Source: Planctomycetota bacterium
GTDB lineage: Bacteria; Planctomycetota; Phycisphaerae; Phycisphaerales; SM1A02
Length of the DNA stretch: 64,000 nt
Direction: 5' to 3'
Assembly: GCA_022566535.1 (NCBI GenBank)
Contig: JADFIR010000002.1
Location: forward strand, 124,001 to 188,000
Of this stretch, positions 8,419 through 55,717 are shown one piece after another (position 1 is the stretch's first letter; every line of letters starts with the position of its first letter). Both the position numbers and the translations under genes were made by a program. The notes below the pieces were generated by a model. That model was given only the letters and a program-made list of their open reading frames with translations. It ran no database searches and was not told the DNA's origin.

Positions 8419-8647
8419 GCGAACCCCCATCGTCGAAGGGCTGCTGACCTACGACCAAGCCGGGAAGCTGCTCGGCGTCACCGGCCGGACTGTCTGGACA
8501 CTGGTTCATCGCGGCGGCCTACCGGCGGTGCCTTTCGGTCACAGCGTCCGCATCGACCCCGCCGACCTGCGGGCCTTCATCGAGCGATCGAAGCAAGGCC
8601 CCGCCTCGGACACCGCCGGAAACGCCGGGGAAGGGGGCAGCCGATGA
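8411..8647 (+). CDS. Excisionase-family helix-turn-helix protein
   Basis: A 78-residue HTH_17 protein of the excisionase/MerR-like type: LTYDQAGKLLGVTGRTVWTL as the helix-turn-helix, then VHRGGLPAVPFGHSVRI as wing, and DPADLRAFIERSK as the final helix. Such proteins direct excision by tyrosine integrases or act as small regulators. It starts inside the preceding HTH gene and ends with an ATGA overlap into the primase-ATPase gene, so it is part of the element operon. Confidence 0.75.
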   Translation: MVERTPIVEGLLTYDQAGKLLGVTGRTVWTLVHRGGLPAVPFGHSVRIDPADLRAFIERSKQGPASDTAGNAGEGGSR

Positions 8648-10728
8648 CCCCTGGACACTGGCGCGAAGTGAAGCGGAATGAGCCCTGCCCCATCTGCGGC
8701 AAGCCCGACTGGTGCGGCCGATCTCACGATGGCGCGATCCGCTGCATGAGGATCGCCGATCCACCGGCGGGGTGGCGCAGACTGAAGACGTGCCCCGATG
8801 GCGGCACGGTCTTCCGCCCGGCAGATGAGCCGAGCTACACCGCGCCGGCCCCGCAGAAGCGATCCAGTGCGGCGAGGGGCCGGCATAGCAGGACCTTCCC
8901 GACTGCCGACATCGCAGCCGCCAATGTTCTGCGAATGATTCAGCAGGAGCACGGCGCGGACTGGGTGCAGGTGGCGACGTTCATCTACAGCGAGGGCCTG
9001 GGGCGAGAGGTGGCGCGCGTGCTGCGCTATGAGCCGCCGGACCGCGGCCCGAAGAAACTGAAGCAACTGCGGCCGATCCATTGCGACGGCGGGAGCTGGT
9101 CAATCGGCGATCCGGCCGGGCAATGGCCGCTGTACCGGCTCACGGAGTTGAACGGCTCGCAGCGCATCTTCATCCTCGAAGGCGAAGGAAAGGCCGATGC
9201 ACTGCGATCGTTTGGACTCATCGCCACGACTTCGGCCCACGGCTCGAAGGCCGCTGCGAAGACGGATTGGCAACCGATGGCCGGCAAAGAGTGCATCATC
9301 CTGCCCGATGAAGACGACGCCGGGCGGCACTATGCCGAAACCGTGGCAAGCATCCTGCATCGACTTCAGCCGCCGGCAATGGCCCGCATCTTACACCTAC
9401 CGGATCTACCGCCCGGCGGCGATATCTGCGAGTTCATCGAGGATCGGCGGACTGACGCAAAGGACGGCCTCGCCATTCGGACGGAGATCTCCGACCTGGC
9501 GGCGCTGGTCCCTGAGCATGTGCCTTCAGCCGGCGACGATCGGGGCGACGGACGGCGTCCGGTCATCGTCCGCTTGGCCGACGTGAAGGCCGAGCCGGTG
9601 CGCTGGCTTTGGCCCGGCCGCATCGCCTTGGGGAAGGTCACGCTTCTCGCCGGCGATCCCGGGCTCGGCAAGAGCTTCATCACCCTGGACATGGCGGCGC
9701 GCGTTTCCAGCGGCACGCCCTGGGCCGACGCGCCAAAGGAACCGAACGAAGTTGGCGGCGTTGTGCTGCTAAGTGCTGAAGACGACGTGGCCGACACGAT
9801 CCGGCCCCGGCTGGACGCGGCGGGCGCGGATGTGTCGCGGATCATCGCGCTTGAGGCCGTGGTCCAACGTGACCCTGAAACCGGCGCTGCGATGCGAACG
9901 CCATTCTGTCTGGCGACCGACCTGCCGGCGCTGGAAACGGCTATCGAGCAAGTGGGCGACTGCCGGCTGGTCGTGATTGACCCGATCACGGCCTACTTGG
10001 GAGCAACCGATTCTCACAAGAATGCCGAGCTGCGCGGGCTGCTCCACCCGCTGGCCGACCTGGCCAGGCGGCGTCGCGTGGCGGTGGTAGCGGTTACGCA
10101 TTTACGCAAGGCCGGCGGGCGGGCGATGTATCGCACGATGGGAAGTCTGGCATTCGTCGCAGCGGCGCGTGCGGTCTGGGTCGTAACGAAGTACAAGGAC
10201 GACCCCAGGCGCCGGTTGGTCCTGCCCGTAAAGAACAACCTAGCCCCGGACATTGGGGGCCTGGCGTATTCGCTGCTGGCCGATGCCGACGGTGTGCCCC
10301 GCGTTGCGTGGGAGGCTGATCCAGTAAACCTCACTGCCGATGATGCCCTGAGCGAAGATGGCGACGATGACGTGCGATCGGAGCGCGAAGCGGCAGCAGA
10401 TTGGCTGCGCGATGCGCTTGCGGCCGGGCCGATGCCCGCGAAGGAGGTGAAGCGCGAAGCCAAAGAGAACAGCATCGCCGAGCGGACGCTGAAACGGGCC
10501 AAAAAGGACATCGGCGCGGAAGCCCGCCGGCTGGGATTCGGAAAGGGTGCGACATGGTTCTGGTCGCTTCCTGGCACCTGGGATGCCCATAGTGGGCCAA
10601 GCGAAGGCATAGAGGGCCAACCCCAAGACGTGGCCCCCAATGGGGAATCTGGCCCCCTATGCGATGACGAGGCGGGCGGCGGCAACCTGGCCTTTCTCCA
10701 AGTTTCGGAAGGTGGAGCTTTACAATGA
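8644..10728 (+). CDS. TOPRIM primase-like / RepA-type AAA ATPase fusion
   Basis: A 694-residue replication-type protein. The N-terminus has a zinc-binding ribbon with C15, C18, C24 and C34 (CPICGKPDWC then RCMR), like primase zinc domains. A TOPRIM domain follows: FILEGEGKADAL near residue 175 and LPDEDDAGRHYA near 219, giving the glutamate and DxD metal ligands. From about residue 310 there is a RepA/AAA_25 ATPase with Walker A AGDPGLGKSF (near 336) and a Walker B-like LVVIDPITAYLG. The C-terminus is a winged-helix-like segment (AKEVKREAKENSIAERTLKR). This organisation is typical of primase-helicases of satellites, plasmids and integrative elements. ATGA overlaps join it to both neighbours. 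Confidence 0.85.
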   Translation: MTPGHWREVKRNEPCPICGKPDWCGRSHDGAIRCMRIADPPAGWRRLKTCPDGGTVFRPADEPSYTAPAPQKRSSAARGRHSRTFPTADIAAANVLRMIQQEHGADWVQVATFIYSEGLGREVARVLRYEPPDRGPKKLKQLRPIHCDGGSWSIGDPAGQWPLYRLTELNGSQRIFILEGEGKADALRSFGLIATTSAHGSKAAAKTDWQPMAGKECIILPDEDDAGRHYAETVASILHRLQPPAMARILHLPDLPPGGDICEFIEDRRTDAKDGLAIRTEISDLAALVPEHVPSAGDDRGDGRRPVIVRLADVKAEPVRWLWPGRIALGKVTLLAGDPGLGKSFITLDMAARVSSGTPWADAPKEPNEVGGVVLLSAEDDVADTIRPRLDAAGADVSRIIALEAVVQRDPETGAAMRTPFCLATDLPALETAIEQVGDCRLVVIDPITAYLGATDSHKNAELRGLLHPLADLARRRRVAVVAVTHLRKAGGRAMYRTMGSLAFVAAARAVWVVTKYKDDPRRRLVLPVKNNLAPDIGGLAYSLLADADGVPRVAWEADPVNLTADDALSEDGDDDVRSEREAAADWLRDALAAGPMPAKEVKREAKENSIAERTLKRAKKDIGAEARRLGFGKGATWFWSLPGTWDAHSGPSEGIEGQPQDVAPNGESGPLCDDEAGGGNLAFLQVSEGGALQ

Positions 10729-10967
10729 AGAAAGTATCGGATACCGTGTCGATCATGTCCAAAATCCACGACGCCATCCGCAAGGCCATCGCCAAGAGCG
10801 AGAAGACTCGCTATCGGCTGTGGCAGGAGACGGGCATATCCCAGGCCCAGCTATGCGAGTTCCTGCACGGCCGGCGCGGCATGAGTATCGAGTATCTGGA
10901 AACGCTGGCCCAGGCCCTTGGGTTGGAAATCACGGTCCGGCCGGCAAAGCGAAAGAAGGGACGCTGA
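10725..10967 (+). CDS. Cro/C1-type HTH regulator
   Basis: An 80-residue XRE-type protein. The helix-turn-helix is in TRYRLWQETGISQAQLCEFL, followed by HGRRGMSIEYLETLAQALGL, the classical helix 4-5 pattern. It overlaps the primase gene by four bases and stops three bases before the integrase, so it is likely the element's repressor or integrase regulator. The palindrome at 8166-8183 is a candidate operator. Confidence 0.8.
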   Translation: MKKVSDTVSIMSKIHDAIRKAIAKSEKTRYRLWQETGISQAQLCEFLHGRRGMSIEYLETLAQALGLEITVRPAKRKKGR

Positions 10968-10970
10968 ATC

Positions 10971-12275
10971 ATGGCGAGCATTAGCAATGATCCGAACGGC
11001 CGGCGGCGCATTCTGTTCGTCGGTGCAGACGGCAAGCGAAAGCCAATCCGGCTAGGGAAGGTCTCGCTTCGGCACGCCGAATCGGTCAAGGTGAAGGTGG
11101 AGGACCTTGTTTCCGCCAGCATCACCGGCCATCCGCCGGCCGACGAAACTACACGATGGCTAGGCAAGCTGGATGCATCCCTGTACGACAAATTGGCGCG
11201 CGTGGGCCTGACCCAGCCACGAGAATCGGCGACGCTCGCCGAGTTCACCCGCAACTACATCGACAGCCGTTCCGACGTGAAGCCGGGGACCATCAGGAAC
11301 CTTGAGCAATGCCGCGCGTACCTGCTCGAATGCTTCGATGAGGCCCATGCGCTTCGTGCCTTCACCGCCGGCGACGCCGAAGATTTCCGACTACACATGG
11401 TCCGCACCGGCCGGGCGGACAATACAACCCGGCGCGCGATAGGCCGTGCGCGTCAGTTCTTCACGGCGGCGAAGCGCCGTGGGCTGATCCAAGAGAATCC
11501 CTTCGAGGGCATCCCGGCGTCCGTTCGCGCGAATACCGAGCGCTTCTACTTCATCAGCCGACGCGAGGCCCAGCGGGTCTTGGACGCCTGCCCCGATGCG
11601 CAGTGGCGTCTGATCTTCGCCTTGGCGCGTTTCGGCGGCCTGCGCTGCCCGTCCGAAGTACTCGCCCTGACTTGGGATGATGTGAACTGGGAGCAGAACC
11701 GCATCCGTGTCCCCAGCCCGAAGACGGAGCACAACGAAGGGGGCGGCAGCCGGATCATTCCGCTGTTCCCGGAGTTGCGGCCACACCTGCTAGAAGCATT
11801 CGACGAAGCCGAACCGGGAACGCAATACGTCATCACACGCTGCCGCGACAGCCGGACGAACTTGCGGACACAGATGCACCGGATCATACGCCGGGCCGGC
11901 TTGGAGCCGTGGCCGAAGACGTTCCAGAACCTTCGCAGCACGCGGGAGACGGAGCTAGCCGAGCAGTTCCCGATGCACGTGATCTGCAAGTGGATCGGCA
12001 ACAGCCAGCCAGTGGCCGCCCAGCACTACCTGCAACTGACTGATGAGCACTTCGAGCGGGCCATTGAGCCCGCAGCGGTAGGGGGCACACAGGCGGCGCA
12101 GAATGCGGCGCAGCAACCGCACGAAGCCACCGGAAATGGCACGAAGCCCACGCCGTTGGCTGATCCTGGAAGCCCTGTTTCTTCCGGCGATTTCAGCGGA
12201 GTTCCAGCGATTGCGGGATACTTCACTGGCGAGAAAGCACCCCGTAGGGGATTCGAACCCCTGTTACCAGGATGA
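10971..12275 (+). CDS. Tyrosine recombinase (integrase)
   Basis: A 434-residue phage-type integrase. A SAM-like core-binding domain lies at about residues 85-180 (TLAEFTRNYIDSRSDVKPGT) and the catalytic domain at about 185-360: box I arginine in ARFGGLRCPSEVLALTW, the second arginine in FQNLRSTRETELAE, and the nucleophile tyrosine in AAQHYLQLTDEHF. In box II the usual histidine two residues before the arginine is asparagine here. A low-complexity tail leads to RRGFEPLLPG, codons read antisense through the 3' half of the tRNA-Glu gene, so the stop codon lies inside the attachment site. The integrase therefore marks the right end of an element inserted at tRNA-Glu. Confidence 0.9.
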   Translation: MASISNDPNGRRRILFVGADGKRKPIRLGKVSLRHAESVKVKVEDLVSASITGHPPADETTRWLGKLDASLYDKLARVGLTQPRESATLAEFTRNYIDSRSDVKPGTIRNLEQCRAYLLECFDEAHALRAFTAGDAEDFRLHMVRTGRADNTTRRAIGRARQFFTAAKRRGLIQENPFEGIPASVRANTERFYFISRREAQRVLDACPDAQWRLIFALARFGGLRCPSEVLALTWDDVNWEQNRIRVPSPKTEHNEGGGSRIIPLFPELRPHLLEAFDEAEPGTQYVITRCRDSRTNLRTQMHRIIRRAGLEPWPKTFQNLRSTRETELAEQFPMHVICKWIGNSQPVAAQHYLQLTDEHFERAIEPAAVGGTQAAQNAAQQPHEATGNGTKPTPLADPGSPVSSGDFSGVPAIAGYFTGEKAPRRGFEPLLPG

Positions 12276-12310
12276 GAACCTGGCGTCCTGGGCCTCTAGA
12301 CGAACGGGGC
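12238..12310 (-). tRNA. tRNA-Glu (anticodon CTC)
   Basis: The minus strand folds as a complete cloverleaf: acceptor GCCCCGT/ACGGGGT, D arm with TCGTCTAGAGG, anticodon stem CCAGG/CCTGG around the loop TTCTCAT giving CTC, and a T arm AGGGG-TTCGAAT-CCCCT. The discriminator base is G and CCA is not encoded. The sequence resembles bacterial tRNA-Glu strongly. Its 3' half is also the integrase attachment site: codons of the plus-strand integrase run 37 bases into it without breaking the fold. Confidence 0.92.
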
Positions 12311-13416: not shown

Positions 13417-13605
13417 CGTGTCGGCGGCGACGTGTCCCGCGAAACTTCAATCGGGCGGTTGACGGCCTCGGCATGTCGCCGTAGATTCCGCATCGGATGT
13501 GGCGCACGCGCGTCCGATGAACGAAACTTGATCGGCTGGTGGGCTTCGCTGGAGCGGTCAGCGCAAAAAACGAAGCGTCGGGCGAGTCCCCGGGAGGCAG
13601 GACCG

Positions 13606-50025: not shown

Positions 50026-51201
50026 ATGATTCAACCAGTCATTCTCGCCGCCAAGCGGACGCCGGTGGGCCGGTTCCTTGGGGGGTTGAGCCGCACGCCC
50101 GCGCCTCAGCTTGGAGCGTACGCGATTCAGGCCGTGCTCGAAGAGGTCCCCGCGGCCAAAGACCACGTCGATGAGGCCATCTTCGGCTGCGCGCTGCAAG
50201 CCGGGGTCGGTCAGAATCCCGCCCGGCAAGCCGGGCTCAAAGCGGGGCTGCCCGATACGCTCAACGCTCAGACGATCAACAAAGTGTGCGGGTCCGGCCT
50301 CCAGTCCGTCATGCTCGCCGCCCAGTCGATCAAGGCCGGCGACAACCAGCTCGTCCTGGCCGGGGGATTTGAGAATATGTCGCTGGCGCCTCACATGGAC
50401 TACCTCCGGACGGGGGTGAAGTTCGGTGATAGCAAGATGATCGACCACATGGTCCACGACGGCCTGTCGTGCCCGTTTGAAGGCTGGGCCATGGGCTGTG
50501 CTGCGAACTACATTGCCCGCAAGCACGGCATCTCACGAAAAGAGCAGGACCGCTTTGCCGCACAATCGCATCACCGTGCCGCCGAAGCGACCGGCAAATG
50601 CTTCTTCAAGCCGGAGATCGTGTCGCTTGCTGCCGAGCAGCTCAAGCAGAAGCAGGGCGTTGAGAACGATGAAGGTATTCGTGCCGACTCCAGCGTCGAG
50701 AAGCTGGCGAAGCTCAAGTCCGTGTTCGACGCCGACGGCACCGTCACCGCGGGCAACGCTTCTCAGATCTCCGATGGCGCCGCCGCTCTCATCGTCGCTT
50801 CGCCGGCTAAGGCCGAGGAAATCGCCGCTGACCCGATCGCCTGGATCGTGGACTACCACACCGCCGGCGTCGCCCCCAAGGAGATCTTTGACGCGCCCGC
50901 CAAAGGCCTCAAAGCGCTGCTGGCGCGCAACAAGCTGACGATTGACGATATCGATCTCTTTGAGCTCAACGAAGCATTCGCCGCCCAGGTGCTGGCGAAC
51001 ATCAACGAGATCGACCTCCCCGAGGCTAAGCTCAACATCTGTGGCGGGGCGATCGCACTCGGTCATCCAATCGGGGCTTCCGGGGCCCGCGTCCTCACGA
51101 CCCTGCTGCACCAGATGATCCGCACGGGAGCCCGGCGCGGCATTGCGAGTCTCTGCCTCGGCGGCGGCAACGCCGTCTCCATGCTCGTGGAGCGGGGGTA
51201 A
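50026..51201 (+). CDS. Acetyl-CoA acetyltransferase (thiolase)
   Basis: A 391-residue type II thiolase. The acylated cysteine is C88 in [12 protein letters not shown]; the catalytic histidine is in [16 protein letters not shown] and the second cysteine in [10 protein letters not shown]. It condenses two acetyl-CoA or degrades acetoacetyl-CoA. No other beta-oxidation genes are adjacent. It is the last GC-rich gene before the AT-rich island. Confidence 0.93.
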
Positions 51202-51834
51202 GGGATGGGCGGAATCCCTGGGTTTTTGCTTTCTCAAGAAGGCTCTTTCAACTGAGCCACAGCGTGGCTACGTCTGGAAGCGGTCTCTCAAAAGACGTGG
51301 GAGCGTGATTCCTCGCGTGCACGCGAAAAGCTGGTCATTCGGGCTGAGATAGGCCGTTTTTTTCAGGTGTCAATGGCCACCAGGGTGGGCAAGCTTTCCA
51401 AGCTGCTAAGCGCCAGATGGTGAGGAAGCCAGGAGCTGGACCAAGAGCAACTTTCTTGGGGTTTCCCGGGAGACAACCGGCTTCCTGGAGCAAACTGGGT
51501 ACGAGGAGCCTCCAAACTGGCTCCTTCGTCCGATCCTGCCGACATTTCAGCTCGCAGGGGATGATGAGTCGCCCAAGCAGGGCGAGATCCACCTGGGTTG
51601 GGTCGGCTGATCTCACCAAATCTGGGGATATGTCCCAATCATCGAACGAGAGCTCCTCAGTTCTGACGTCTAGGTCTGCTAGGGCCCAAATGCCGTACTC
51701 ATGCGGCGGGGGGACCCTTTCGCGTCGCCACCAGCAAAGAGGAAAAAGGTGGGCACTTCGGGTTTGGCCCGGTAATTGATCAGTCGCAGCAAGGCTCGTC
51801 TCATTTACCGGGGACGCAGAAATACTTAGCCGTT
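51202..51834. other. Gap with decayed coding stretches before the island
   Basis: This 633-base region has no intact gene. Its plus strand shows protein-like open frames without starts. One runs 51410-51610 and includes TGYEEPPNWLLRPILPTFQL then AGDDESPKQGEIHLGWVG; after its TGA the same frame reads SHQIWGYVPIIERELLSSDV. The frame of the next gene is open from 51667 and includes KGGHFGFGPVIDQSQQG. These may be the broken 5' part of the metallopeptidase gene or of another gene. A short hairpin GGCTC/GAGCC at 51241-51258 lies behind the thiolase stop but without a T-run. Confidence 0.35.
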
Positions 51835-53373
51835 GTGAAGGACTACCTTGAATACTACGGTAAGTTGCTTCACTCCGCTTATGTGGGCAACAAAGACAAT
51901 GGGGGGCGTAAATCTATTAGACCTACTAGAGAGCAGTTCCTCGTTCCCACACTTGCTCTGAAGCAGGCAATCAAAGGCGTGACAGAGACTGTTTTCGAGT
52001 TGATCCCTCTTATTAAGAGCCTTTGTGATGGGACAACTGATTGCATGCCGTATGCAATCGCCGGGTGGCTTGACTATGAGTTTCAATGCATCCGCAAAAC
52101 GATAAAGACCGGCACCACACGCGATGCGACTTCTGCCGACACAGGCAGGGTCTCGGCATCAGACGCGATTCACCGAAAAGAAGAACAAGATGGACTTGCC
52201 TTGTGTCCCGTTCCGGATGTGAATTTCTTTTATCAGAATCCAGGAGAAGTAGAAGAATTACTGCATGATACGCACAAGCATTTGTTAGGATGCGTGGAGT
52301 TACTCGGACAAGAGAACTTGCCCGCAAGTCCTACCTCGACTTCTCTGCCGTTCTATATCGGTTATCAATATGCAATGGACGAGGATGTATTATTCAATTC
52401 AATCCTTTTCCATGAGCTTGGACATCACGTGGCAAAGATGGTTGGCGTTCAAGACAAGCATGGTTCAAGGGTGGCGGATGGCCTGCACAAATATCTTCCG
52501 AGAATCAAGCTTTATCGAAAGTTGCGTCGAGATTCCCCCAGTGCCGCTGAGGATATGAAACTGCGATATGAGGAGTATGTGCTTAATTGGATCGAGGAAT
52601 TGTTCTGCGATGCATTTGGTGCTCTAATTGCCGGACCTCAGCTCGCGTTTGCTCTTCGTGACCTCTCTGAGCCATTGATTCATGAATGGGCATTCACTGA
52701 TTCACACCCGGCTTGGCGCTTCAGATTGAATTTCCAATGGAGAGTGTTGAAGAATGCTGGGTGGATCAAGGAACAAAAGATAAATCCTCGGCCAACGAAG
52801 AGGAATCAAAGGGCTTCGGACAAAGGTGGAACAAGTTTGTCATTCATCATCGAGGCCGATGATACCCTTCAAGCATTGAAGCCGGGCGAGGTCCCCAGCT
52901 ATGCTGGCTGGTACTGGGTCGAAGAGAAAATGCGTGTTGATAGGATAATAGCATTCGCAATCAAAATGCTCGATGAACGACTAGACGATATTGAAGCAAG
53001 CGCGAGAGAATGTGTCCATGATGCAGACGAAAGAGCAGCTTCCTTTTGGCAGGATGGGCCTGCCGTTCATGGTGCTTTCCTTGATCTCCTTGTGCCTTCA
53101 ACAATAGCGTTATCATCAAACAGAGAAAGCTTGGAAAGGAAAGAAGAATCTAGACGGAACGCGCAGCCGACTAGGATCATTCGCCCGCACCCAACGACTG
53201 TCATCAATGTGGCGCGTATAATCTATGAAGATGGTTGTCGTGGGTTGAAGGAACGTTGGCCTAAGGGTAACCAAGATAATGCGCCGTACCGAGTCCAGCA
53301 ACACATCGAGCGCCGGCTCTCGGCGTGGACACAAAAGGCTGTCAGCGACTGGTTCCTCTACAGAGGACGGTAG
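51835..53373 (+). CDS. Putative HExxH zinc metallopeptidase of AT-rich island
   Basis: A 512-residue soluble protein of unknown family. The strongest motif is LFHELGHHVAKMVG: H193, E194 and H197 form a classic HExxH zinc site. About 57 residues later NWIEELFCDAFGALIAGP supplies E254/E255 and D259, a plausible third ligand, as in gluzincin-like proteins with an ExxxD helix. A conserved-looking C-terminal half has no known motif. Start GTG 51835 is the only standard start in a frame open from 51667, so the N-terminus may be truncated. The gene is about 40-50% GC against 60% or more on both sides, and its end overlaps the dCTP-deaminase-like gene. Confidence 0.7.
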   Translation: MKDYLEYYGKLLHSAYVGNKDNGGRKSIRPTREQFLVPTLALKQAIKGVTETVFELIPLIKSLCDGTTDCMPYAIAGWLDYEFQCIRKTIKTGTTRDATSADTGRVSASDAIHRKEEQDGLALCPVPDVNFFYQNPGEVEELLHDTHKHLLGCVELLGQENLPASPTSTSLPFYIGYQYAMDEDVLFNSILFHELGHHVAKMVGVQDKHGSRVADGLHKYLPRIKLYRKLRRDSPSAAEDMKLRYEEYVLNWIEELFCDAFGALIAGPQLAFALRDLSEPLIHEWAFTDSHPAWRFRLNFQWRVLKNAGWIKEQKINPRPTKRNQRASDKGGTSLSFIIEADDTLQALKPGEVPSYAGWYWVEEKMRVDRIIAFAIKMLDERLDDIEASARECVHDADERAASFWQDGPAVHGAFLDLLVPSTIALSSNRESLERKEESRRNAQPTRIIRPHPTTVINVARIIYEDGCRGLKERWPKGNQDNAPYRVQQHIERRLSAWTQKAVSDWFLYRGR

Positions 53374-54232
53374 TGCTAGCACCGGAGGACTGTTAGGGAA
53401 GAGACGGATCCTCGAGTATTTGCGGACATTGACAAGTAAGCGCGAGTCTCTCGTGATCACGCCTCTTTGCTGGCACGATGATTATAAGGACGCTGAAGGA
53501 ATCAATGAAGATTCGGTTGATTTGCGATTGGGTTGTGATTTCTTTGTCCTTCGATCTGACCGACTATTTGCTCATATCCCTGGTGTTACGCTAGGTTACG
53601 AGTTTCAGCGGCCCGTTCACATACCGCTTGGAAGGTACATTGTTCTTCCTGGGCATCAGACTGTTCTTGCTGCGACGCTGGAATATATCAAGCTCCCACC
53701 TACTCTTTCTGCGATGGTGCTTACGAAGAGTTCTTGGGCCAGGAGCTTTATCACGATTGAGACTGCACCATGGGTGCACCCAAATTGGCGGGGGTGCCTT
53801 ACCCTGGAGATTGCCAATCATAGTGAGGTTGCCTTTATTCTATATCCAGGATACGCAGTAGCTCAGTTGATACTCTTCCAGGTAGATCACGCAGGTGAAC
53901 CCGTCGAAGAACCTTCTCGTCGCTATCTCGGTGCTACGAGGCCTGAACCTCCGGATATCAATGAACCAAGAATCGCACTTCGTGAACTTGGCATTTCCAA
54001 AGATCAGATTCAATCGCCGCCAGGTTATGCTATGAGCTGTCGCCGGTGCGATGTTGCATTGGAAAAAGTTGACAGCACAATGGCCGAAGCGGATCCAACT
54101 TGCTCAACGCCTGGCGAAGACTGGATACCAGATGTTAGAAAGCACATTACCAAGTGGAAGGATGTCGAGGTGTATACCTGTCCGCGGTGTAGACGTGTCG
54201 AATTCGTTGTTGATGGGATCGGGCAGGCTTAA
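53279..54232 (+). CDS. dCTP deaminase/dUTPase-fold protein with zinc ribbon
   Basis: A 317-residue fusion. Residues 40-205 match the dCTP deaminase/dUTPase fold: INEDSVDLRLGCDFFVLRSD, YIVLPGHQTVLAATLEYIKL, then TKSSWARSF with the SSxAR motif (S151-R155), ETAPWVHPNWRGCLTLEIAN with A163 and the catalytic-type E177, and YPGYAVAQLILFQ. The C-terminus is a zinc ribbon: C254, C257, C301 and C304 (MSCRRCD ... YTCPRCRR). In dCTP deaminases the equivalent glutamate activates water. The only standard start before the domain is ATG 53279, which overlaps the peptidase gene by 95 bases; a non-standard CTG is possible. Low GC like its partner. Confidence 0.75.
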   Translation: MRRTESSNTSSAGSRRGHKRLSATGSSTEDGSASTGGLLGKRRILEYLRTLTSKRESLVITPLCWHDDYKDAEGINEDSVDLRLGCDFFVLRSDRLFAHIPGVTLGYEFQRPVHIPLGRYIVLPGHQTVLAATLEYIKLPPTLSAMVLTKSSWARSFITIETAPWVHPNWRGCLTLEIANHSEVAFILYPGYAVAQLILFQVDHAGEPVEEPSRRYLGATRPEPPDINEPRIALRELGISKDQIQSPPGYAMSCRRCDVALEKVDSTMAEADPTCSTPGEDWIPDVRKHITKWKDVEVYTCPRCRRVEFVVDGIGQA

Positions 54233-54237
54233 TCAGC

Positions 54238-54386
54238 GACGCGAAGTGTGGCACGCCGACTTTTAGGTGGGCGACCTGGGAGAGCTCTTCGTCAATCCCG
54301 AACACTTTGACGTTTACGTCCGCCCGCGCTGTGGCCGGGTGGAACTGTTCATCGACGGGATCGGGGAGGAGTTTTGGCCGCATTGA
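54238..54386 (+). pseudogene. Decayed second copy of a zinc-ribbon C-terminus
   Basis: One frame reads DAKCGTPTF from 54238; after a one-base deletion near 54265 the next frame reads VGDLGELFVNPEHFDVYVRP then RCGRVELFIDGIGEEFWPH and a stop at 54386. It is clearly related to the end of the preceding gene (DVEVYTCPRCRRVEFVVDGI) but GC-rich, and has CGTP where a CxxC would be and RPRC for CPRC. So it looks like the end of a host gene homologous to the island's zinc ribbon, left behind after insertion or recombination. Confidence 0.6.
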
Positions 54387-54439
54387 TCTGCGGCTGAGCG
54401 CTGCTTGGCGCGTTGGGGCGCATCGGGTCTACTGCCCCA

Positions 54440-55717
54440 ATGGAAAGGCGCCTGATTGAGCCGGGCTATCGCTTTCGGCCGGCCAGACCGAGCCGGTTCT
54501 GGCAGTGGGCGCTGACTCCGCTGCGTCGCCGCGTGTATCGGCGCAGGTACCTGGTGCGAGACGGTCAGCTGCGCGGAGAGAAGCATGTGCGCTGGGCGCT
54601 GGCCCAAGGCGGTGGGGCGATGATTACGATCAATCATCCTGCCCACGGCGACCCGTTCATCATCTTCGAGGCGATGCATCGCCTCGGTGTGCCGTGTTGT
54701 TATCTCGCGGCGTGGCAGGTCTTCAAGGGTTGGTTCGGCTTGAAGGGGTGGGCGTTTCAGCGGCTCGGGGCGTTCAGCATTGACCGCGAGGGGACTGACT
54801 TGCGGGCGTTTCGCACTGCCGTCGATGTGCTTGCCCAGGGAAATCGATCGCTGGTCATCTTTCCCGAGGGCGAGGTATACCACCTCAACGACCGCGTGAC
54901 CCCGTTGCGCGAAGGGGCGGCGATGATCGCGCTGGCCGCGGCCCGGCGGCGCAGCCGCAGTGGCGGCTCCGCGCTGCACATCCTGCCCTGTGCGCTCAAG
55001 TACTTCTATCTCGACGATCCGACGCCGCAGTTGCAGTCTGTGATGACCCGATTGGAGCAGCGGCTGTATTGGCGGCCGCAGGTCGATCGTCCGCTCCTGG
55101 AGCGCATCTATCGTTACGCGGAAGCAATCCTGGGGTTGAAGGAGTTGGAATACCTCAACGAGTTCGGCAAGGGGTCGCTGCCGAAGCGCATCAGCCGGCT
55201 GACTGAGCACATCCTTTCGCAGATGGAGCAGCGCCGTCTCGGCCGGGTGGGCGACCAACCGATCCCCGCGCGTGTCAAGCAACTGCGGCATCACATCCTC
55301 CGCGAGTGGGGCGCCGATGAGGCCCAAGGCGACGATGCGGCAGCGGTCGGTGAGAACCCAGCCGGCGCCGAGTTGTCGCTGGAGGCGATCACGGCTGCGA
55401 AGCGCGATCTGGAGGACCTGAATCTGGTGACCCAGCTATTCAGCTATCCCGGCGATTACGTGACCCAGCAGCCGTCCATCGAGCGAATGACCGAGACGCT
55501 CGACAAGTTCGAGGAGGATGCGCTGGGAGCCCGCGAAGCAGGCGCGCGGGCGGCTCGGCGGGCGGTCGTCAGCTTCGCCCCGACGATCGACGTCACAGCC
55601 CACCTCGCTGAGGCGAAGGGCTCCGCCCGGGGCGCCGCTGGCACCCTGACCGCCCTCATCGAGCAACGCATCCAGGAGCAGCTCGATCAGATCGGCCAAC
55701 CGCAGCTGACGAAGTGA
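54440..55717 (+). CDS. PlsC-type acyltransferase with long helical tail
   Basis: A 425-residue protein. The acyltransferase domain (about 55-215) has the NHX4D box INHPAHGDPF (H66, D71) and the glycine box IFPEGEVYHL, so it transfers acyl groups to lysophospholipid or glycerol phosphate. A further 200 residues are helical, amphipathic and charged (RVKQLRHHILREWG, EAGARAARRAVVSF), longer than in simple PlsC proteins. No clear TM. ATG 54440 is used; a TTG nine codons earlier is an alternative. The acceptor is unknown. Confidence 0.8.
   Translation: MERRLIEPGYRFRPARPSRFWQWALTPLRRRVYRRRYLVRDGQLRGEKHVRWALAQGGGAMITINHPAHGDPFIIFEAMHRLGVPCCYLAAWQVFKGWFGLKGWAFQRLGAFSIDREGTDLRAFRTAVDVLAQGNRSLVIFPEGEVYHLNDRVTPLREGAAMIALAAARRRSRSGGSALHILPCALKYFYLDDPTPQLQSVMTRLEQRLYWRPQVDRPLLERIYRYAEAILGLKELEYLNEFGKGSLPKRISRLTEHILSQMEQRRLGRVGDQPIPARVKQLRHHILREWGADEAQGDDAAAVGENPAGAELSLEAITAAKRDLEDLNLVTQLFSYPGDYVTQQPSIERMTETLDKFEEDALGAREAGARAARRAVVSFAPTIDVTAHLAEAKGSARGAAGTLTALIEQRIQEQLDQIGQPQLTK

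Follow-up and report, generated by a model that had tools for sequence, protein, structure and literature searches.

Two overlapping genes, designated A and B, lie within a GC-poor island of the window (the whole stretch of 64,000 nucleotides of Planctomycetota DNA that was analyzed). Gene A (51835..53373, + strand) begins with GTG and encodes a predicted M48-like zinc peptidase of 512 aa, designated as such from HMM comparison, motifs, and structural neighbors. Gene B (53279..54232, + strand) begins with ATG and encodes a 317-aa dCTP-deaminase-family enzyme with a C-terminal zinc ribbon, based on matches to PF22769 and PDB 4xjc. An earlier reading of the DNA from its sequence only had placed the island at 51835-54232. 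Both open reading frames do fall within that range, but the inserted or replaced segment is larger (51193..54390, no strand assigned), as delimited by GC content and by the points at which homology to two genomes of the same genus (G002 and G003) stops and restarts. It is flanked by a thiolase gene (50026-51201) and an acyltransferase-like gene (54413-55717). The insert is 3.2 kb long with a GC content of 51% (49% in its core), compared with 62% for the window. The low GC content that had been reported was reproduced: positions 51801-54230 have 49.2% GC versus 62.4% for the whole window, the lowest-GC stretch of equal length elsewhere in the window has 54.9%, and a recount of the 60 bases at 52201 gave exactly the 23 G or C previously noted.

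The thiolase and acyltransferase genes of G002 and G003 are separated by a gap of only about 104 bp, and the homology of the window to these genomes ends at about 51192 and restarts at about 54391. In a third genome of the genus, from a sister species, a toxin-antitoxin-like DUF433/DUF5615 pair occupies the site. Thus, the insert was not present in any of the three same-genus genomes. The two empty sites and the different gene pair at the third demonstrate that the island is a genuine insertion of foreign DNA at a variable insertion site. The DUF433/DUF5615 pair (L100, G001:C34:27100-28200) sits at the 3' end of the thiolase gene, a small insertion hotspot, and is accompanied by a 38-bp repeat of that 3' end. 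A separate candidate integrated element was observed at 8644-12310 of the window, where an AAA ATPase gene accompanies a tyrosine integrase (PF00589) that ends beside a tRNA-Glu (12237-12310); a dnaA-like gene follows shortly after, at 13432.

The sequence-only reading had assigned gene A an HELGHH zinc site and a later EExxxxD. Both are present, as H193-E-L-G-H197-H and E254-E255-L-F-C-D259, and the proposed metallopeptidase-clan motifs were supported by an alignment of 65 family members and by structural neighbors. An additional invariant motif, HP(x4)R, had been missed. The motif positions in gene A are HELGH 193-197, E255, D259, HP 291-292, and R297. HExGH, E, D, and HP....R were invariant across the alignment (65/65; H291 in 64/65). 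The order HExxH, ExxxD, HP...R is typical of M48 peptidases such as Ste24/ZMPSTE24 and HtpX. The predicted structure has a mean pLDDT of 56 overall but about 85 in the core, and is good over residues 184-311. With VIA-align 2 the best structural neighbors of the core were ZMPSTE24 (Z 6.3) and Ste24p (Z 6.0), weak matches over about 110-130 residues, and the best alignment had an rmsd of 6.0 over 109 residues (Z 6.3); Foldseek gave no match at E<=0.001. However, the flanks of the core are not recognizably M48, and gene A reached the threshold of no family in Pfam, NCBIfam, or PADLOC. Pfam Peptidase_M48 did not match the window gene, and the E. coli homologue scored 16.1 bits against it, below the cutoff of 20.3. 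Gene A is therefore named M48-like rather than M48, a member of an unnamed M48-like peptidase family.

Gene B was expected to match the Pfam DCD family, and it did (PF22769, E 5.6e-28, 98.4 bits against a cutoff of 27). The match covers residues 72-211, and the related dUTPase family was far behind in both Pfam and NCBIfam. The solved relatives of gene B are dCTP deaminases (PDB 4xjc at 2.9e-13). Its score against the NCBIfam equivalog for dCTP deaminase (TIGR02274), 89.5 bits, is just below the cutoff of 92.8, and thus gene B is assigned to the DCD family only and is not taken to be a proven dCTP deaminase. The SSxAR motif and catalytic-type glutamate that had been recognized are in place as S151-S152-W-A-R155 and E177, and these deamination residues are conserved among the B members (Ser151 in 64/64, Arg155 in 63/64, Glu177 in 63/64). 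At the "DPG/EPE" position the Asp/Glu of the housekeeping enzymes is replaced by His167 in the window; among the 64 members this position is Gln in 56, His in 5, and Glu in 2. The Asp of this motif serves the pyrophosphatase step in established dUTPase chemistry. With the Asp/Glu of the housekeeping motif missing, gene B would be expected to lack dUTPase activity. Its substrate or activity may also differ from that of a dCTP deaminase, given this substitution and the score below the equivalog cutoff.

In a phylogenetic tree the B proteins of the system formed a clade apart from five other DCDs, including the host's own, with 99/98 support and long branches. The possibility that gene B is the cell's only dcd was rejected because the window genome contains a further DCD-like gene, and E. 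coli K-12 likewise has another dcd. To judge from the separate clade and these additional genes, gene B is not the metabolic enzyme.

The zinc ribbon reported for the second open reading frame is present as a C-terminal CxxC...CxxC extension (54023..54229, + strand). It had no match in 20 relatives and is unique to the window copy among the aligned family members. A second, truncated zinc-ribbon coding fragment with no start codon (GDLGELFVNPEHFDVYVRPRCGRVELFIDGIGEEFWPH, 54270..54386, + strand) lies behind gene B inside the insert. It is 50% identical to the ribbon of gene B over 24 aa and also had no match in the 20 relatives. An origin of the ribbon in a gene native to the genus was considered but was not supported, as no relative carries it. 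The first approximately 36 residues of gene B, which lie inside the overlap with gene A, have no counterpart in relatives, and the true start of gene B may therefore lie downstream of 53279.

A tblastn search with the gene A of the window found nothing in plasmids, phages, genome contigs, viral contigs, or 100 relatives, and its family was reached only via the plasmid neighbors of gene B relatives. An HExxH gene was directly upstream of B relatives on plasmids of E. coli, Salmonella, Shinella, Rhizobium, Agrobacterium, Bradyrhizobium, and Emticicia. HMMs built only from the peptidases or deaminases of other genomes picked out gene A (E 1.4e-10) and gene B (E 6.6e-30) among 815 ORFs, and recognition of both genes is thus far beyond chance.

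The sequence-only reading had proposed a survey of whether the pair co-occurs in unrelated genomes, and this proved to be the case. When genomes were scanned using only the peptidase alignment, 54 loci were found, and B was directly downstream in all of them (54/54), usually in a frame overlapping that of A and frameshifted in two. Conversely, two loci from the same phylum that were found by B alone (L079 and L080) carry A upstream, and L080 adjoins what, read from its sequence, appears to be a type III restriction system. B starts -25 to +10 bases from the A stop in 54/57 loci (median, -4); the 95-base overlap in the window is odd by comparison. Divergence of A and B rises together (Spearman 0.87, uncorrected for shared species history). 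An ORF of about 100 aa that ends at A, designated S, was found directly upstream of A in 51/54 loci; this third gene had been overlooked. S encodes a helical, fast-evolving protein with a conserved M-[LFY]-x-[AS]-like start, for which Foldseek gave no fold match at E<=0.001. Six-frame translation of the stretch upstream of gene A (51202..51834, + strand), where S is positioned in other genomes, revealed no recognizable S, and the window copy is thus an A-B variant of the S-A-B operon.

These results demonstrate that S-A-B is a mobile operon, with A and B as its core genes, distributed across several phyla. It occurs, among others, in Pseudomonadota, Thermodesulfobacteriota, Bacteroidota, and the phylum of the window itself. 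The full cassette was present in 8 of 5426 E. coli genomes, and the examined copies were on P1-like phage-plasmids. The copies on two Salmonella plasmids (pSa1423; L013 and L014) appear to be broken by frameshifts in these records. A-like proteins without B alongside were also seen at two loci (L081 and L082); these are regarded as distant relatives outside the S-A-B system. At L082 (G196:C59, 947-9431) two further HEVGH peptidases with a distant resemblance to A have CHAT and AAA/STAND proteins as neighbors and no deaminase, suggesting that the peptidase family of A may serve other conflict systems as well. In a viral contig (L075, 698-2563), an S-A locus with DUF6527 has a gene A that is shortened where terminase-type prophage genes start. 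A phage appears to sit inside this operon. The hit had looked like a gene A fusion, a reading that was rejected because A is simply cut short beside the prophage genes.

S-A-B loci were found on conjugative plasmids and P1-like phage-plasmids, and their neighbors included type I and type III restriction systems, SIR2, toxin-antitoxin genes, AbiE, PrrC, and CapH/CapP. The annotated neighborhoods contained mobile and defense-type genes and no housekeeping nucleotide operon. The commonest neighbors, a ubiquitin-like association missed in the sequence-only reading, were genes for multiubiquitin, ThiF/E1, Prok-E2, JAB, and DUF6527. The ubiquitin-like module was within the fetched flank in 18-20 of about 60 loci, in varying orientation, whereas more than half of the loci, including those on the E. 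coli phage-plasmids and in the window, had no ubiquitin-like genes there. Among Hyphomicrobiales, Multi_ubiq was present in 9/10 genomes with S-A-B versus 20/295 others, a difference whose p value of 1.7e-9 is overstated because the ten S-A-B genomes are related. The other neighborhood counts are without a matched control. The window copy stands alone, with neither ubiquitin-like nor other defense genes beside it.

The sequence-only reading had linked the pair to antiphage defense, with the protease as a hypothetical activator or sensor. Of the three outcomes that it had named as refuting, two (a pair confined to this genome and a consistent place in housekeeping nucleotide operons) were contradicted by the data; regarding the third, the deaminase fold, the similarity of gene B to solved DCDs is clear from sequence. 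The DCD family, the peptidase motifs, the co-occurrence, and the location all stood, but the precedent on which it drew, that dCTP deaminases are established antiphage effectors, is not directly transferable. The 2022 papers of Tal and Hsueh are reportedly the founding ones on defense deaminases. Pfam and NCBIfam assigned gene B to DCD/dUTPase only and not to the superfamily of zinc-dependent cytidine/deoxycytidylate deaminases, to which AvcD presumably belongs. The characterized antiphage effector AvcD, which has an RNA antitoxin, is described as a deoxycytidylate deaminase (PMC10511110). Zinc-dependent deoxycytidylate deaminases show no relationship to DCDs in their sequence, structure, or mechanism (PMC12088426). 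The precedent is therefore an analogy of effect and not of family. Like AvcD and the dCTP deaminases of the 2022 papers, gene B would act on the deoxycytidine nucleotide pool if it deaminates dCTP. Compared with Dcd/DCD-DUT enzymes (PF22769, TIGR02274; PDB 4xjc, 2qxx, and 1xs1), B keeps the family sequence and the Ser-Arg-Glu residues but forms its own clade, has Gln/His at the "DPG" Asp/Glu, is always coupled to peptidase A, and in the window adds the zinc ribbon.

The polyUbl, inactive E2, JAB-E1, and metal-binding proteins of type 6e operons are frequent neighbors of S-A-B, but S-A-B often occurs without that module, and the components listed for type 6e polyUbl operons by Iyer et al. in 2006 exclude the S-A-B genes (PMC1779556). 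CapH/CapP, DNA-damage-responsive controllers of immune operons (PMC13373217), flank many S-A-B loci. CapP, however, is an IrrE/M78-type protease that regulates transcription, whereas A belongs to a different peptidase family and lies inside the operon. No PADLOC model was convincing for A, B, or S, and none matched gene B at E<=1. No published description of the A-B pair was found in the open-licence literature, and one may exist elsewhere.

The linkage, mobility, and neighbors of the A-B pair suggest that it is probably an undescribed immune system. The reading that we favor, tentatively and a little short of calling it probable, is that S-A-B is a mobile defense operon against phages or other mobile DNA in which A controls the DCD-type B. 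The tight linkage, the catalytic residues intact throughout, the separate B clade, the mobile and defense-gene context, and also the DUF433/DUF5615 pair at the same site in the sister species are consistent with this reading. We infer that S-A-B behaves as an immune operon of the toxin or abortive type, in which a protease controls an enzyme that acts on nucleotides. B would be a dedicated copy of a dUTPase-fold dCTP deaminase that converts dCTP to dUTP, and so would lower dCTP, with no dUTPase action. A, as an M48-like zinc peptidase, would control B, the direction presumably being from A to B. In the simplest form, infection or DNA damage would be sensed and A would then cut S, B, or a phage-altered partner. 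S, a small and fast-changing helical protein, would be the likely inhibitor or sensor. The more specific proposal that S-A-B represents an undescribed immune class, in which a dUTPase-fold dCTP deaminase gated by a zinc protease collapses the dCTP pool, and which is used both alone (on phage-plasmids) and as a partner of ubiquitin-like conjugation modules, is possible but distinctly less likely.

It is also possible, although rather unlikely, that the roles are reversed, with B the nucleotide sensor and A the toxic effector. A shift in deoxynucleotide pools upon infection, or a modified dCTP produced by it, would change the state of B, freeing A to cut host or phage proteins. The A-B linkage data fit this arrangement equally, the DCD/dUTPase fold binds dCTP, dUTP, and dTTP, and the change from Asp/Glu to Gln/His could indicate that B has moved from catalysis to sensing. 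Furthermore, immune effectors are often proteases, and in SaPI induction the dUTPases of phages serve as signals. However, the Ser, Arg, and Glu of B are invariant or nearly so, unlike those of most pseudo-enzyme sensors. The frequent adjacency to polyUbl/JAB-E1/DUF6527 modules matching the type 6e operons, and to CapH/CapP, raises an unlikely alternative, namely, that S-A-B, instead of standing alone as an antiphage system, is a module for stress or against plasmids, or else the effector arm of the multiubiquitin conjugation system. A would then process ubiquitin-like conjugates or targets, with B as the regulated enzyme. The varying orientation of the module and the majority of loci without ubiquitin-like genes in the flank argue against it.

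An accessory role in nucleotide metabolism, in which B is a mobile second dCTP deaminase supplying dUTP/dTTP and A an unrelated passenger, is already disfavored and appears highly improbable. Single dcd genes without A do occur on plasmids (L012, L018, and L019), one of them beside thyX, but the presence of A with B at 54/54 loci, in overlapping frames, the lack of a nucleotide operon in annotated neighborhoods, and the separate B clade do not fit a metabolic passenger. The window copy itself may be decayed or different, given its lack of a recognizable S and of adjacent defense genes. That it is a non-functional operon remnant, which would be compatible with any family-level reading, is doubtful. 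The missing S, the odd overlap, the broken ribbon fragment behind gene B, and the long branch are what decay would leave, but both frames are open (512 and 317 codons) and all catalytic residues are intact.

If the reading of S-A-B as a defense operon with A controlling B is confirmed, then dUTPase-fold dCTP deaminases, which to date have been known in housekeeping roles, would join the immune effectors, and S-A-B would clearly exemplify nucleotide starvation controlled by a protease. The operon is compact (about 2 kb) and intact on E. coli phage-plasmids, and is therefore testable at once in laboratory strains. Its recurrent place beside multiubiquitin modules, which were described in 2006, provides a handle on the function of those modules.
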